From Sulfurimonas sp. HSL-3221 (GTDB lineage: Bacteria > Campylobacterota > Campylobacteria > Campylobacterales > Sulfurimonadaceae): a DNA stretch of 64,000 nt. Both the position numbers and the translations under genes were made by a program. The notes beneath the pieces were generated by a model. It searched no databases, was not told the DNA's origin, and saw nothing but the letters and a program-made list of their open reading frames with translations. This document shows positions 2,832 through 32,774 of this stretch, piece by piece (the stretch's first letter is position 1; each line of letters starts with the position of its first letter). The stretch spans positions 1,736,001-1,800,000 of the forward strand of contig NZ_CP087998.1 of NCBI RefSeq assembly GCF_021044585.1, written 5' to 3'.

Positions 2832-5459
2832 ATGCTCATTCAGATACGATACGCGCTCGCGGCACTTGTCGCCGTCTCCCTGACTTCCTGTGCCACTGGC
2901 CCATCCCCATCCGCTTCTGCCGGGGCCAAGCCCACCCAAAAATCCGCACCGCCAAAAACAGCCGGCGACCTGGACCCGATGTACCGGCCACTCGGGGATG
3001 TCGATCTTTCGCAATACAAGAGCGCCGGTAACGGCCTGCTGCTGGTTGCCCGAAAGGGCGACTACGATATCCTGCTGACCAAACCCGGGTACCCCTATGA
3101 ATTGCCTGCAATGGGCTGGTCCGGCATCAACTACCACAAAGCCACACGAAACGTATCACAGTTCAGCGGATACATGATGCGCGCAAGAAATAAGGGGAAT
3201 AATCCACTTCCCTACATCGGGCGCCAGGTATTCGTAGATATTGACGGCGTCGCGGAGTCCTACTACGGATCGTTTGCTTGGAACAGCTTCAAGCAGTGCC
3301 TGTTTTGCAGCCGCGACACCATTGTAGAGTTTGTCGAGGGTATTCCCGAGGTTCGGGACACGGACGGCAAGGTACTTAGAATGCCGTACAAGATCAACCG
3401 CTATTGGGAATATTGGTATCAATTCAACAGTGGCAACTACGTATGGCATTACGTTACCAATAGCGAACAAACTTCCCGCAAAATCCAGCTAAGACCGGCT
3501 AGCCATGACCAAAAACCGGTCTACACCGAGGTCTCCGGTCTGCCCCAGTACGAATTCGTGCTGCCGCATCCAGAGCAGGTCGCTGCCAATTTTCCCAGCA
3601 CTGACCGTGCGCTGTTCACACGTACCTACTCGCTGGGCGACCTGCTCCGGCAAAAAAAAATCAATCCTGACAACCTGCTCCTGAAGCCGTTTAGCCCAAC
3701 CTCGCTGAGGGACAACTTCAATAAATCCAAGATTCACAAGTATGATCATGCCTGGATTTCACACGGGCAGTCGGCGTTCGTCTCCAGCCCGATGACCGGG
3801 AAAACCTACCTGCAGCCGTACCAAAAGCCGCCGGTGCTGACACTGCCTTCATTGAAAGAGATCGTCATGAACGGCAAGCTCTCCGTCAACCGTCAGTGCA
3901 TGGGAAAAACGGATGGCATGGTAGTACTCACGGGCCAGTGTGACCCCGCGTCGCCGGTGTTCCCACTGACCGTGATGACGCAGATCTCCACCAACCAGTT
4001 TGTCGTTAACGTGTGGTCGGACATCAATCGCCGCAGCAGCTACCTGCTGACCGGCGGCCAGTTCCCAAAACAAAACTTCTACCGCTGGAACATCGATGCC
4101 TTTATGGTGAACACAACTGTTGATCCCGACACCACACTTGCCGCCCTAGAGACGGGTGACGACCCCTTTTCGGAAAAAATGATCGCCTTTGCCAACCAAA
4201 ACCAGGACCGTCAGGTCTGCGACAAGATGGCCACGGCGGTCAGCAACGCCGAAAAAGCCCTGCACTTCGACCCGGATATCGAGGAGCGTCTCGCGAAATA
4301 CGAGCACTACTACAAGATGGATTGGGCTGACATGGGCAAGGCCATCTCAAATATCGACAGAAACCCCAAGCACACGCCGGTCACCGATTTCGAGGAGTTC
4401 GTCTGGGACGATCTGGTCAGTATGAGAACGGACATCGACCAACGTCTCAATGTCCTCAACCGCTACAAGGATGTCAACAATAGCGTATGCCAACCGGATC
4501 CTCAACGTATGACCCAACTGGTAACGGCGCTCACGAGCTTCAAAGCAGATCTTAGGGCCTCTATGAAACAGTTGGACGACACCTACTACGATCAAGCCGT
4601 TGAGCGCAAAAAAGAGATCTACTATTGGGCCAACCGGCTGGAAGAGGCCAAGAAACAGGCGGCAATGGCACAGTTTATGGACAAGCTTCATGCCTCACTG
4701 AATGCCGATCTGGCGGCAAAACAGGCGGAACGCCGTTCGATGACGCGCAGCATACTCGAGAGTCGCCGCGCCGTCAAGGCCCAAATCGCGGATGTCAAGG
4801 CACGCAATGCCGCTTATTTTGCCAACCATAAACCGGCCGTGAGTGCACCGAGCGCGGTGACCATCGCCCCGGTCACGATGCCGTCGTACTCGCTCGACAC
4901 TACCGCGGATTCAAAGGTCTACCTTGGTGGCTTGACATCGAATCGTCTCAGTTTCCAAGACGCTATCGCTCAGTCAAAGATCAAAACCGCACAGCTAAAG
5001 CAAACGACTACGGGCACGGCTCCAAACGCGACCGCTGCAACACCGTCCGCAGAGTCGGCCCCTGAGGCAAAACCTTCCAGAGATGCTCCCGGAGGTGCTG
5101 CGATCTGTGTCGCTGTGAGCCGCAATGCCAGCAATAACATGACAGACCTTGGCTACTACTACGCCTATGATCAGCACTCTACGCCACTCAAGACCGACAG
5201 AGTGGCTCGCCAGAAATATGCCGCCGAACACAACGGCACCCCAAGCTGTAAACACAATGACGAAGACGAGGTCGGCGCATTGGTCGTGGTCGTATGGGAC
5301 GGCAAGGACTATACCGGTGCCGCAAGCCGAACCTACGGCATGGGCTTCGGTCTATCAACCGGTGCCGCGGAAATGGATGCCGTCAATAATCTGTCCAATC
5401 GCAACTGGAGCTGGAAACCATCAATGGGCTACCGCGTTGTGTTCGCCAAGCAGTATTGA
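2832..5459 (+). CDS. Large lipoprotein of unknown function with coiled coil
   Basis: 875 residues. The N-terminus is a lipoprotein signal peptide with lipobox LTSC (Cys20), so the protein is predicted to be anchored in the outer or inner membrane facing the periplasm. Residues 60-450 are a mixed Tyr/Asn-rich region with no family I recognise. Residues about 490-680 are charged and helical, with likely coiled coils around 570-665. A low-complexity Ala/Thr/Pro linker follows, then a compact C-terminal block (about 765-875, from AAICVAVSRN to FAKQY) resembling small secreted DUF4189-type domains. It is a single-gene unit. The start has a weak ribosome site. Function cannot be assigned. Confidence 0.85.
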   Translation: MLIQIRYALAALVAVSLTSCATGPSPSASAGAKPTQKSAPPKTAGDLDPMYRPLGDVDLSQYKSAGNGLLLVARKGDYDILLTKPGYPYELPAMGWSGINYHKATRNVSQFSGYMMRARNKGNNPLPYIGRQVFVDIDGVAESYYGSFAWNSFKQCLFCSRDTIVEFVEGIPEVRDTDGKVLRMPYKINRYWEYWYQFNSGNYVWHYVTNSEQTSRKIQLRPASHDQKPVYTEVSGLPQYEFVLPHPEQVAANFPSTDRALFTRTYSLGDLLRQKKINPDNLLLKPFSPTSLRDNFNKSKIHKYDHAWISHGQSAFVSSPMTGKTYLQPYQKPPVLTLPSLKEIVMNGKLSVNRQCMGKTDGMVVLTGQCDPASPVFPLTVMTQISTNQFVVNVWSDINRRSSYLLTGGQFPKQNFYRWNIDAFMVNTTVDPDTTLAALETGDDPFSEKMIAFANQNQDRQVCDKMATAVSNAEKALHFDPDIEERLAKYEHYYKMDWADMGKAISNIDRNPKHTPVTDFEEFVWDDLVSMRTDIDQRLNVLNRYKDVNNSVCQPDPQRMTQLVTALTSFKADLRASMKQLDDTYYDQAVERKKEIYYWANRLEEAKKQAAMAQFMDKLHASLNADLAAKQAERRSMTRSILESRRAVKAQIADVKARNAAYFANHKPAVSAPSAVTIAPVTMPSYSLDTTADSKVYLGGLTSNRLSFQDAIAQSKIKTAQLKQTTTGTAPNATAATPSAESAPEAKPSRDAPGGAAICVAVSRNASNNMTDLGYYYAYDQHSTPLKTDRVARQKYAAEHNGTPSCKHNDEDEVGALVVVVWDGKDYTGAASRTYGMGFGLSTGAAEMDAVNNLSNRNWSWKPSMGYRVVFAKQY

Positions 5460-26621: not shown

Positions 26622-26952
26622 AACAACCCTGGGCGCGCTGCTCGCAGACCTCCGCGCCTTTTACGATCCCAAAGTGTGGCACTTCCTCACCGTCAACGGG
26701 ATCGACCTGGGCGAAGGGAAGATCGAGCTACAGTGGATCTTCTCCCGCTACGGCGCCAAGAACGACGTTGTCGTCTACTACGCGCTGAGCGACTACGACA
26801 CCCCCGTCCCCTCCGTCGTGCCCGTCATCCCCTCCGCCTTCCTGGGCGAACGGGAGATCGTCGACATGTTCGGGCTCAATGTCGAAGGGACCGCGGGCGG
26901 CCTCTACCTCGACAAAGACTCCCAGCCCCATCCGCTCAGGGGGGACGCATGA
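26605..26952 (+). CDS. Ech-type hydrogenase subunit (EchD/NuoC-like)
   Basis: 115 residues, short version of the NuoC 30-kDa subunit, ending with the family block VPVIPSAFLGEREIVDMFGLNV...GGLYLDKDSQPHPLR. It has a structural role bridging small and large subunits. It overlaps both neighbours (17 bases upstream, ATGA downstream). The ATG at 26608 is an alternative start. Confidence 0.92.
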   Translation: MMQKIETTLGALLADLRAFYDPKVWHFLTVNGIDLGEGKIELQWIFSRYGAKNDVVVYYALSDYDTPVPSVVPVIPSAFLGEREIVDMFGLNVEGTAGGLYLDKDSQPHPLRGDA

Positions 26953-28034
26953 AGAAAACCGTCCAGATCCCGCTGGGTTCGCAGCATATCTCCCTGCTCG
27001 AGCCCATCCGGTTCAAATTCGAATGCGAAAACGAGACCATTGTCGGGGTCGACGCCGATGTGGGCTTCGTGCACCGCGGCGTCGAGCAGGCCTGCACCAC
27101 CAAGTTCGACTTCAAACAGGTCGGCTTCGTCGTGGCGCGGGTCTGCGGGCTCTGCGCCATCACCCACTCCCTCTCCTACACCCTCGCCGCGGAGAAGCTG
27201 CTGGAGTTCACCCCGAACGACCGCATCAGGTACCTGCGGATGCTGATGGTCGAACTCGACCGCATCCATTCGCACATGCTCTGCCTTGCGCACACGGCGG
27301 AAAACGCCGGCTTCGAGGCGCTCTTTATGCAGATCATGGGCGACCGTGAGCTTGTCATGGATATCCAGGAGGCTATCAGCGGCAACCGCATCCAGTTCGA
27401 CTTTATCGCCATCGGCGGCGTCACCCGCGACCTTACCCCCGAGATGGTCGCCCTGCTGCACAAAAACCTCGACCTCCTCTTCGGCAAGATCTTCGACCTC
27501 ATCGAGCTGTTCGAATCCAACTGGTCCCTCTCGCTCAAGTACAAAGGCATCGGGGCGCTCTCGCTGGAGGAGGCGCAGACCTACAACGCCCTTGGCCCCC
27601 TCGCCCGGGCCGCCGGACTGGCCACCGACGTGCGGGTGGAAACGGATGACTTCCCCTACGAGGCTCTGGGCTACGAGATGATGCTTGAAACGAGCGGCGA
27701 CATCCATGCCCGCAACCGGGTGCGGCTGCGCGAGATCATGAACTCCATCGCGATGTGCCGCAACATTGTCGACAACCTCCCCGCCGGGGAGATCATGGAG
27801 AAGGCCAAGGGCAAACCGAAGGGCGAGGCGATTGTACGCGTCGAAGCGCCCCGGGGCGAGCTCTTCTACCTCGTGCGCGGCGGCGGGCAGAACATGCTCG
27901 AGCGTGTCCGGATCAAGACCCCGACCTTCTCGGGCATCCCTGCCATGATGGAGGTGTTCAAGGGTAGCCGCTACGCCGACGCCCCGGCGATCCTCGCCTC
28001 CTTTGATCCCTGCATGTCGTGTACGGCGAAGTGA
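26949..28034 (+). CDS. Ech-type [NiFe]-hydrogenase large subunit (EchE/NuoD-like)
   Basis: 361 residues. Both NiFe-ligand motifs are present: RVCGLCAITH (about 64-73) and DPCMSC at the C-terminus (residues about 353-358), so the protein should bind NiFe and not be a Complex I-like inactive copy. Only TAK follows the last Cys, so there may be no C-terminal peptide to remove. The start overlaps the echD stop. The last 27 coding bases reappear at 28170-28197 (see repeat). Confidence 0.96.
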   Translation: MKKTVQIPLGSQHISLLEPIRFKFECENETIVGVDADVGFVHRGVEQACTTKFDFKQVGFVVARVCGLCAITHSLSYTLAAEKLLEFTPNDRIRYLRMLMVELDRIHSHMLCLAHTAENAGFEALFMQIMGDRELVMDIQEAISGNRIQFDFIAIGGVTRDLTPEMVALLHKNLDLLFGKIFDLIELFESNWSLSLKYKGIGALSLEEAQTYNALGPLARAAGLATDVRVETDDFPYEALGYEMMLETSGDIHARNRVRLREIMNSIAMCRNIVDNLPAGEIMEKAKGKPKGEAIVRVEAPRGELFYLVRGGGQNMLERVRIKTPTFSGIPAMMEVFKGSRYADAPAILASFDPCMSCTAK

Positions 28035-28197
28035 GTTGAAAATGCATGAAAAGCAAATCATGATGTCCAGCAAAGTCCGGCTAGCCGGGCGGGCCCGCCG
28101 CCGAAGCGAACCCAGTGTTAACGTAGGTCAAGGGGCTTGGCTCCTTGAGCGTGTGAAAACTTTAGAAGTACCCTGCATGTCCTGTACGGCGAAATAG
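28007..28197 (+). repeat. Duplicated echE C-terminal coding tail with 135-bp insert
   Basis: The end of echE (28010-28034, coding for PCMSCTAK) and 28172-28196 differ at about three of 25 positions. Between them lies 135 bases with no clear ORF but strong inverted repeats (CCGGCTAGCCGG and GGCGGGCCCGCC around 28078-28101; TCAAGG...CCTTGA around 28127-28147). The second copy encodes PCMSCTAK plus a stop, in the +1 frame relative to echE. A ribosome site for the next gene follows the second copy. Confidence 0.75.
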
Positions 28198-28206
28198 GAG
28201 GAAGCC

Positions 28207-28641
28207 ATGTTCAGATCGATGTTCAACGCCTTTGCGAACCTCTTCAGACCCGTCCGGACCCACCCCTATCCCGCCGAGCCGATGCCCCTGCCCCCGGCCT
28301 GGCGGGGGCTGATAGAGTATAATGAGGAAGCATGCATTTTCTGCGACAAATGCGAGAAAGCGTGCCCGCCAAAATCGATCCGCTTTTTCCAGCACGAAGA
28401 CGGGCGCAAAGAGTACCGCTACAACGCCTGGCTCTGCATCTACTGCGGCGAGTGCGTGCGGGCCTGCCCCAAACCGGAAGAGGCGCTGTGGCAGAGCGAA
28501 ACGAAGGCACGTCCCGCCGTCAAAGCGGACAACGTCAACGGTGGCTGGTTCGACTGGGAAGCAGAGTGTGCGCAGAGCCGCGAAGAGTATGCGGCGGCCA
28601 AAAAAGCGGCAAAAGCCGCCAAGAAAAACGAAGGAATTTGA
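28207..28641 (+). CDS. Ech-type hydrogenase ferredoxin-like subunit (EchF/NuoI-like)
   Basis: 144 residues with two [4Fe-4S] motifs, CIFCDKCEKACP (about 43-54) and CIYCGECVRACP (about 79-90). It links the hydrogenase to a soluble electron carrier, probably ferredoxin. The charged Ala/Lys-rich C-terminal tail (about 120-144) is extra. The ATG follows TAGGAGGAAGCC, a strong ribosome site; it is separated from echE by 172 bases of duplicated/inserted sequence. Confidence 0.95.
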   Translation: MFRSMFNAFANLFRPVRTHPYPAEPMPLPPAWRGLIEYNEEACIFCDKCEKACPPKSIRFFQHEDGRKEYRYNAWLCIYCGECVRACPKPEEALWQSETKARPAVKADNVNGGWFDWEAECAQSREEYAAAKKAAKAAKKNEGI

Positions 28642-31090: not shown

Positions 31091-32774
31091 AAAAATCGTT
31101 ATAGACCCCATTACCCGCATCGAGGGGCATCTGCGCATCGAAGTCGAAATCGACGAGAACAACACCGTCAAAGAGGCGTGGGCCTCCGGCCAGCTTTTCC
31201 GCGGCATCGAAACCATCCTCAAAGGGCGAGACCCCCGGGATGCCGGCCTCATTGCCCAACGCATCTGCGGGGTCTGTACCAATGTGCACTACCGCGCCTC
31301 CATCAGCGCCGTCGAAGACGCCTACGGCATCGCCCTGCCCCCCAATGCCGAGAGCATCCGCAACCTCGTCACCCTCGCGCTCTTTGTCCAGGACCACATC
31401 GTCCACTACTACCATCTGCACTCCCTCGACTACGTCGACGTCGTCAGCGCCATCTCCGCCGAGCCCGACAAGGCCGCAGAAGTGGCACAAACTTATCATC
31501 ATTACCCCTACCGTACTTCGACGGGGCATATGAGCGCCGTCAAGGAGAAGCTGACCTCTTTCGTCAACGCGGGACGACTGGGACTCTTCGCCAACGGTTA
31601 CTGGGGGCACAATGCCTACCGCTTCAGCCCCGAGCAGAACCTTATCCACATGAACCACTACCTCGAAGCCCTGCGGGTCCAGCGCGACCTCAGCCGGGCG
31701 GTGGCGATCTTCGCCGGCAAGACGCCCCACCCGCAGAACCTCGTTGTCGGCGGCGTCACCAGCGTTGCGGACATGCTCAATCCGCAGCGCCTCAACGACT
31801 TCATGTTCATCATCAAAGACGCCCGCGACTTCATTGAGCGCGCCTACCTCCCCGATATCAAGATGGCGCTCGAGGCCTACAGGGACGACATCAAAGCCGG
31901 CACGGGACGCGGCAGCGGCAACTTTATGGCCGTGGGCGGCTACCAGTTCGGACAGGAGCAGCAGCTCTTCGAAGGGGGAACCGTTTTCGGGCATGACTTC
32001 GGCAGCGTCGAACCCTTCGACGAGCAGTACATCACCGAAGAGGCGTCGCGCTCCTGGTACGCCGACGACGCCCCGGTTGCGCCCTACGACGGCAAGACCG
32101 AGCCCTTCTATACGAACCTCAACAAAGACGGCACGCTGAAGACGGAGGGCAAATACAGCTGGGTCAAGGCACCGCGCTACAAAGGCAAGCCCATGGAGGT
32201 GGGGCCGCTCGCCAGGATGATCATCGGCACCCTCAAGGGTTCCCCGGTCATCAAACCCTACATGGAGCAGTTCATGAAGGAGACGGACCTCGAGCTGATG
32301 GACTTTTCGACGACGCTGGGGCGCAACGCCGCCCGTGCCGTAGAGGCCAGGGTCTGCTGCGACTACCTCTTTGATTTCTGCAGCGACCTCATCGAGAACA
32401 TCAAGTACTACGACGAAGAGACCTGGACGAAGTACGACTTTGCCGCCCTGCCCAAAGCAGCACAGGGGCGCGGCATCTTCGAGGTGCCGCGAGGTGTGCT
32501 GGGCCACTTTATCCGCATCGACGACGCCAAGATCGCCAACTACCAGGCGGTGGTGCCGACGACCTGGAACGCTTCGCCCAAGGATGAAGGCGGTGTGCGC
32601 GGCCCCTACGAAGAGTCCCTGGTCGGCATTACCCTCGCCGACCCTTCCGCGCCGCTGGAAGTGCTGCGGGTCGTGCACAGTTTCGACCCCTGTCTCGCCT
32701 GTGCCGTGCACGTCATCAACGCCAAAGGCAGAGAGCTTTCGCACTACAAGATCGCCGCGGCGTGCACGCTTTAG
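31080..32774 (+). CDS. [NiFe]-hydrogenase large subunit (cytosolic, group-2-like)
   Basis: 564 residues. The N-terminal signature ITRIEGHLRIE is followed by RICGVC (about 61-66) and the C-terminal DPCLACAVH (about 537-545), giving four Cys ligands to NiFe. About 19 residues follow the His and would be removed by a maturation protease, which is not in this window, nor are hyp genes. It overlaps the upstream gene by 11 bases, so it pairs with that fusion small subunit. Group assignment is by overall look and lack of export signal, not by a tree. Confidence 0.95.
   Translation: MATKKIVIDPITRIEGHLRIEVEIDENNTVKEAWASGQLFRGIETILKGRDPRDAGLIAQRICGVCTNVHYRASISAVEDAYGIALPPNAESIRNLVTLALFVQDHIVHYYHLHSLDYVDVVSAISAEPDKAAEVAQTYHHYPYRTSTGHMSAVKEKLTSFVNAGRLGLFANGYWGHNAYRFSPEQNLIHMNHYLEALRVQRDLSRAVAIFAGKTPHPQNLVVGGVTSVADMLNPQRLNDFMFIIKDARDFIERAYLPDIKMALEAYRDDIKAGTGRGSGNFMAVGGYQFGQEQQLFEGGTVFGHDFGSVEPFDEQYITEEASRSWYADDAPVAPYDGKTEPFYTNLNKDGTLKTEGKYSWVKAPRYKGKPMEVGPLARMIIGTLKGSPVIKPYMEQFMKETDLELMDFSTTLGRNAARAVEARVCCDYLFDFCSDLIENIKYYDEETWTKYDFAALPKAAQGRGIFEVPRGVLGHFIRIDDAKIANYQAVVPTTWNASPKDEGGVRGPYEESLVGITLADPSAPLEVLRVVHSFDPCLACAVHVINAKGRELSHYKIAAACTL

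Follow-up and report, generated by a model that had tools for sequence, protein, structure and literature searches.

Among the described families of small bacterial repeats, the one that most likely comes closest to the repeat reported here is the YPAL (RU-2) element of Yersinia, a likeness judged on behaviour and not on sequence. According to the passages on it in PMC2229807, YPAL/RU-2 is an intergenic sequence of 168 bp with internal rather than terminal inverted repeats, is not A+T-rich, and has been found at filled and empty sites with target duplications of variable size (3-26 bp). The same passages describe the ERIC (IRU) repeats of enterobacteria as transcribed intergenic sequences of about 130 bp, which have 7-bp terminal inverted repeats and TA ends and for which an action on mRNA stability has been proposed. 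The GTAG REPs, as treated in the relevant sections of Di Nocera 2013 (PMC3733652), are single hairpins of 20-40 bp associated with RAYT genes. REPs are characterized there as dispersed and intergenic, standing between codirectional or convergent genes and frequently no more than 20 nt from a stop codon. These sections also report GTAG repeats in all divisions of the Proteobacteria, including the epsilon division, place Sulfurovum sp. NBC37-1 among the species with CGTC repeats, and mention intragenic palindromic repeats, RPE among them, that touch the ends of coding sequences or alter them.

We analysed a window of 64,000 nucleotides from the genome of Sulfurimonas sp. HSL-3221 (NZ_CP087998.1, positions 1,736,001 to 1,800,000), in which a structured repeat separates the genes echE and echF and the last codons of echE are present on both of its sides. 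As far as the cited descriptions go, this repeat is like YPAL/RU-2 in being intergenic and not A+T-rich, in its internal inverted repeats, in its filled and empty sites and probably in variable target duplications, all of them points of behaviour only; unlike YPAL/RU-2, it has a core of about 80 nt with three hairpins, and its 27-nt duplication lies on gene ends and at two loci only. It shares with the GTAG REPs, as described, a dispersed and intergenic distribution near stop codons, between genes that are codirectional or convergent, and a GTAG directly 5' of the palindrome P3, whereas its size and its three hairpins set it apart from a single hairpin of 20-40 bp. Kinship to the GTAG and CGTC repeats of PMC3733652 is possible, on a comparison with their description rather than with their consensus sequences. 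With ERIC/IRU, likewise compared by description only, it has the intergenic position in common, whereas the surroundings of the echE copy yielded no inverted pair. Unlike in RPE as described, the repeat does not lengthen the coding end here, which is instead duplicated and preserved. Among the features of MITEs, filled and empty sites in close relatives are present.

Searches for a RAYT transposase (Y1_Tnp) gave 0 matches in the Sulfurimonas sp. HSL-3221 genome (G000) and matches in 6 of 10 relatives, the one in G004 being only weak, and a scan of eight Y1 loci in the relatives, with about 3 kb of flank to either side, found no copy of the repeat. Mobilisation by RAYT was rejected on these grounds. 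At the curated threshold, Rfam, with its introns, riboswitches and CRISPR repeats, returned nothing other than tRNAs over 9 loci, with two chance-level matches at the insert, and the family is absent from Rfam 15. No published description of the repeat was found in titles and abstracts on repeats of Sulfurimonas, Sulfurospirillum, Sulfuricurvum, Epsilonproteobacteria and Campylobacterota or on bacterial MITEs. Because the repeat is not REP-sized, has no RAYT in its genome and has no copies near the Y1 loci, we regard it as a new family among the known small mobile repeats, set apart from YPAL and the REPs by description. It would add a small, mobile, RNA-like repeat family supported by covariation to those of the order studied. 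The features of the locus are collected in the table.

Table. Features at the echE/echF junction and at a further site of the window (window coordinates)
Feature	Position	Strand	Basis
echE-like gene, group-4 [NiFe] hydrogenase large subunit	26949..28034	+	ORF, ends PCMSCTAK and TGA
First (upstream, coding) 27-nt gene-end copy	28008..28034	+	Empty-site comparison, direct repeat
Insert 5' of the repeat core, outside the conserved repeat	28035..28072	+	DNA search, flank comparison
Member of the dispersed structured repeat	28073..28151	+	Covariance model R1, 76.9 bits, E 7.3e-18
Hairpin P1 of the repeat	28075..28090	+	Consensus structure, covariance model
Hairpin P2 (GGG...CCC with inner stem)	28091..28113	+	Consensus structure, covariation, covariance model
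Conserved linker AGTGTTAACGTAG, GTAG end adjoining P3	28114..28126	+	14-copy alignment, covariance model
Hairpin P3, compensated stem of variable sequence, conserved GGGCTTYGCTC-like tip	28127..28149	+	Covariation, covariance model
Insert 3' of the repeat core	28152..28170	+	Sequence, empty-site comparison
Second (downstream) 27-nt gene-end copy, ending in TAG	28171..28197	+	27/27 against G005
echF ribosome-binding site GGAGG, overlaps the second-copy TAG	28197..28201	+	Same in the empty site
echF-like gene, 2x[4Fe-4S] ferredoxin subunit	28207..28641	+	ORF, Pfam
hydB-like gene end, empty site for another copy of the repeat	32770..32774	+	Congener comparison

The product of the echE-like gene matched the Pfam families Complex1_49kDa (178.9 bits) and NiFeSe_Hases (37.9 bits). 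Among proteins of solved structure, formate hydrogenlyase subunit 5 is its nearest relative, and its closest named relatives are mostly records of Sulfuricurvum and other Campylobacterota. The initial annotation had reported that the codons for PCMSCTAK and a stop occur twice, and both a direct reading of the sequence and a 23-nt direct repeat (96%, spacing 163) bore this out. Each copy measures 27 nt with its stop codon, and with an offset of 163 nt from copy to copy the second is read in the +1 frame relative to the first, as had been noted. The stretch between the copies is indeed an insert, with a length of 136 nt (28035-28170) in place of the 135 given earlier. The direct-repeat score at echE was 20, compared with a maximum of 12 across 506 mismatched pairs of flanks, and when the flanks of the 23 repeat copies in the same genome were compared with each other, the other 22 copies scored no higher than 10. 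A search of the insert revealed no terminator and a single weak promoter-like match (28036-28064).

Comparison with relatives identified the native gene end. In the congeners G005 and G007, as well as in G021 and G058 from two other genera of the same family, the junction is empty and echE runs straight into echF. The downstream copy is identical to the echE end of G005 at all 27 positions and to that of G007 at 25 of 27, whereas the upstream copy differs from the G005 empty site at 4 of 27 nucleotides, with every amino acid kept and the stop codon changed from TAG to TGA. The downstream copy is thus the native gene end, which runs into the native leader of echF, and the match of the empty-site relatives to this copy places the insertion point of the repeat 27 nt ahead of the echE end. 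The spacer between the two genes measures 172 nt here and 9 nt in G005 and G007, in agreement with the earlier remark that echF has been separated from tight coupling to echE. Among 41 named relatives, 37 have a spacer of 0-14 nt; the other four are L045 (147 nt), L047 (67 nt), L048, in which the reading is upset by a run of N, and L049, in which the 98 nt probably reflect a misplaced start. The 172-nt spacer was found only in G000 and G004 among the 18 echE tails that were read, one of which (L210) is a false reading; these tails came from 30 loci, and 39 of the 150 genomes searched had an echE match. In the distant relative L045, a related repeat (5117-5194, 41.3 bits) stands at the echE/echF junction after the TGA, without a duplication, and among the 43 loci searched with the covariance model, L038 carries the repeat 3' of echF. 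The junction is filled in both G000 and G004, and these genomes show 2 differences in 509 positions (27694-28202) versus 262 in the 5.8 kb around. This interval looks like a recombination tract spanning the echE end and the insert, and its near identity suggests that both probably moved between lineages together.

Searches of the same genome and of relatives revealed that the core of the insert is a dispersed repeat, and thus the insert is not unique noise. When the insert was used as a DNA query, more copies turned up in its own genome, and 79 of 100 relatives had matches at the loose threshold of E <= 1, many of these matches being weak. Apart from weak chance-level matches, those in the own genome begin near base 52 of the query (about 28082 of the window). 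Unrelated flanks beside the core are likewise carried by other copies; at echE they amount to 38 and 19 nt. An alignment of 14 copies was folded with RNAalifold into three hairpins in which 95.2% of the cells are paired and 14 of the 21 pairs show double changes. The double-change cells numbered 51, compared with 17.6 +/- 3.6 in shuffled alignments (0 of 500 shuffles), and sliding the pairing partners by 1-3 columns reduced the pairing to 28-47%. In a further set of 24 matches, drawn from 19 loci in several families, 97.7% of the cells were paired and 82 double-change cells stood against 21.5, in an alignment that was fitted to the covariance model and hence leans towards its structure. The strong palindromes recognized in the initial annotation are therefore real in kind and their structure is established by covariation among copies, whereas the single sequence folds no more stably than its shuffles (z = -0.82).

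The covariance model, which has 82 positions and three hairpins, matched at E <= 0.01 a total of 31 times in G000 and, among seven congeners, 32 in G004, 24 in G003, 38 in G006, 22 in G007, 21 in G005, 9 in G001 and 2 in G002. In the window, a single marginal match accompanies the echE copy. Across the order, the repeat was detected at E <= 1e-5 in at least 56 of 198 genomes and 16 of 66 genera, in a survey that scored up to 23 candidates per genome. The linker ends in GTAG directly before P3, or in GCAG or GTCG in some copies, and in long forms of the repeat a further hairpin region separates P1 from P2. Within the genus, 62 of 64 copies are intergenic, lying between ORFs called by a simple codon-usage script, and in 29 of the 64 the stop codon of an antisense neighbour lies within 20 nt of the 3' end of the repeat. 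These 64 copies consist of 23 from G000 and 41 of 60 model matches, from which second locus ids for the same place, tandem neighbours and the weakest matches were excluded. The echE copy shows the same-strand arrangement, which is less common than the antisense one with the 3' end against a stop codon. Tandem head-to-tail runs with units of about 92-110 nt occur at L034, L035, L232 and L238. Integron attC sites were considered because GTTAACG resembles the attC core, and they were rejected by eye, the tandem copies having no cassettes between them.

The mobility of the family was evident from orthologous stretches. When the 22 further copies of G000 were compared with G004 and G005, 10 stood opposite an empty site in at least one of them. 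The sites are empty in both genomes at 26854, 111136, 144303, 859982, 1857682 and 2177949, and in G005 at 996537, 1706814 and 1876844, the last of which was judged on G005 alone, as the comparison with G004 was split across two stretches. The site at 460399 is filled in G000 and G005 and empty in G004. The remaining 12 copies were filled in both, of unequal length or not comparable. The hydB-like gene end of the window is conversely empty in G000 and G005 and filled in G004 and G007, in which the insertion alters the last residues from TL to VL. Most of the compared sites show a short duplication or none, the junctions in these alignments being uncertain by a few bases; the alignment pieces overlap by 3-6 nt at 859982 and hydB. 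Flank tests found no target duplication above chance elsewhere.

A second gene-end duplication was found at G000:2320668-2320785, where the repeat lies between a polyprenyl synthetase gene and a transketolase gene, both named by eye from their translations. The synthetase ends in LHYINRHK and a stop 5' of the repeat, and LSYINRHK and a stop recur 3' of it. G006 and G007 are empty at this locus, and when the filled locus was aligned with the G007 site, the two alignment pieces overlapped by 27 bases. The same pattern of 27 nt on the same strand is present in four genomes (G000, G003, G004 and G005), and both duplicated blocks, here and at echE, comprise exactly 8 codons and a stop. The downstream copy again equals the empty-site sequence, with identity to G007 at 27 of 27 positions in G003 and 1-3 differences in the other three, and homology goes no further than its left edge. 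Compared with the native end, the upstream copy has changes at 8 of 27 nucleotides, which are synonymous except for one codon changed from Ser to His by three substitutions, while 30-31 of the 33 nucleotides ahead of it are unchanged. All four genomes have it in identical form, and their gene bodies diverge at as many as 45 of 159 third positions. The distance from copy to copy is 174 nt in G000 and G004 and 175 nt in G003 and G005. Elsewhere in the family, His often precedes YINRHK: a degenerate pattern was matched in 125 of 228 genomes, many with His codons, under a search that allowed up to two mismatches and whose matches need not all come from the same gene.

Beyond these two loci, no gene-end duplication was found among 147 copies (82 and 65), a number that includes orthologues and thus not only independent events, the 65 having been picked from copy lists. 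A possible third case at L257 of G006 (16/18 nt) proved not to be a gene-end duplication. In the flank test of the 82 copies, one mismatched pair scored above both cases and the second locus fell near the top of the null distribution, and the strength of the second locus therefore rests on the empty-site comparison. The confinement of the 27-nt duplication to two loci argues against a general rule of insertion.

The family is dispersed, its structure covaries, its sites are filled or empty among close relatives, and the duplicated blocks have the same exact 27-nt extent at two loci. We consider it probable that a small non-autonomous mobile element of the REP or MITE kind was inserted at the end of echE and left the gene end on both sides. 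Under this explanation, the three-hairpin core of about 80 nt would have entered in the orientation of the genes, at a point 27 nt short of where the echE stop codon ends, and the duplication would be a long target-site duplication. In the ancestral, packed operon, these 27 nt may have held both the codons for the C terminus of EchE and the leader of echF, with the stop codon overlapping the Shine-Dalgarno sequence, and the duplication may have been kept because the stretch had both jobs. After duplication, the upstream copy would need only to encode PCMSCTAK and could drift synonymously, while the downstream copy would need only to serve as the leader of echF and would retain its nucleotides; such a division of labour would account for the synonymous drift upstream and the nucleotide conservation downstream. 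As RNA in the spacer between echE and echF, the hairpins would probably modulate message stability or coupling, as reported for ERIC. The locus would then be a natural example of a dual-purpose stretch, C-terminal codons and next leader, that an insertion has split into one job per copy. The arrangement of the echE copy counts against this explanation, as it is not the commonest one of the family. So do the confinement of the 27-nt duplication to two loci, the recoded upstream copy of the second locus and the lack of Y1_Tnp matches in the genome. With two cases of the 27-nt duplication at hand, the mechanism of insertion can be put to the test. It is unlikely, though conceivable, that a repeat landing on the coding strand is targeted through translation termination, entering at a fixed distance, 27 nt ahead of where the stop codon ends, and that it brings along or generates a recoded gene end specifying almost the same amino acids. 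A length of 27 nt is about that of a ribosome footprint. If this held, the host gene would stay whole and its original end would serve as the leader of the next gene.

The suggestion that a mobile element carries a copy of its target end was among those made from the sequence at the outset, and the dispersed core, the filled and empty sites and the second 27-nt locus favour it in outline, with the copy either brought along by the element or made from the target by the insertion. One rival explanation would be an import by recombination, in which the first copy and the repeat came from a relative that already had the repeat after echE, the left join being homologous and the right join illegitimate and 27 nt short of where the resident stop codon ends, so that the resident gene end became the second copy. 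Import and target duplication yield the same final anatomy. At both loci it is the first copy, not the second, that departs from the empty-site sequence, and the nearly identical tract shared by G000 and G004 points in the same direction, as does the distribution of copies at 460399 and at the hydB site, filled in G004 and G007 only, which conflicts with the species grouping. The His found in the first copy of the second locus is also the residue that is common elsewhere in the family, and the identity of that copy in four genomes together with its triple change would fit an imported copy better than gradual drift. On the other side, import would require the two joins to coincide in the recipient at two unrelated genes, each time 27 nt from the end of the stop codon, no donor was found, and the 4 changes in 27 nt at echE are within drift, since third positions of echE differ at 29 of 160 between G000 and G005. 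We therefore regard import as possible and appreciably less probable than a target-site duplication by a mobile element.

The other explanations fared worse. Integrative elements that use the 3' end of a gene as an attachment site leave a duplicated gene end and a recoded upstream copy, and the present structure could on this account be the scar of an element, integrated at the end of echE by a tyrosine or serine recombinase, that was later deleted down to its sites and the repeat. However, the core of the insert is an independent dispersed repeat, no integrase gene or larger island lies between the copies at the junctions read in relatives, and an unrelated second 27-nt target was also used, in which the copies diverge as early as the third base of the block and thus share no overlap region at the left edge; we consider a scar very unlikely. 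A device for producing an alternative EchE C terminus by frameshift, recoding or splicing, of which frameshift and splicing had been proposed in the initial annotation, has in its favour that the +1 frame is open over 28003-28197 and ends in the same residues as echE. However, the first copy already supplies the full C terminus and a stop, the small ORF matches nothing in Pfam or NCBIfam, and Rfam gave no family, introns included. The offset moreover varies, 163 nt at echE compared with 174 or 175 nt at the second locus, which does not conserve the frame and argues against any frame-dependent device, and we consider the proposal extremely improbable. Least credible of all, with hardly any chance of being correct, is that the second copy is a remnant of another echE, as also suggested in the initial annotation, or a chance repeat. 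The same residues do occur twice, but homology to echE stops abruptly 27 nt ahead of the end of the stop codon, and 27 of the 33 nucleotides before that point are mismatches, so that no trace of a second echE is present. The score of the repeat also lies far above those of mismatched flanks, relatives show a plain empty site, and a graded decay of a second large-subunit gene was seen in none of the 41 named relatives.

Several further features were observed beside copies of the repeat. In the copies of family f20 (L222-L231; for example L227, about 968-1045), palindromic ends read by eye, TAGAGTTCTTGCA...TGCAAGAACTCTA, flank the core and are like terminal inverted repeats. A tRNA-like sequence (GGATTCGAACC) occurs in the flanks of some copies of G006 (L265 and L266), suggesting that some copies of the repeat may adjoin tRNA genes. 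A different, second dispersed repeat of about 75-90 nt lies in the flank of one copy (L101:1324-1412) and has many copies in G003-G007.
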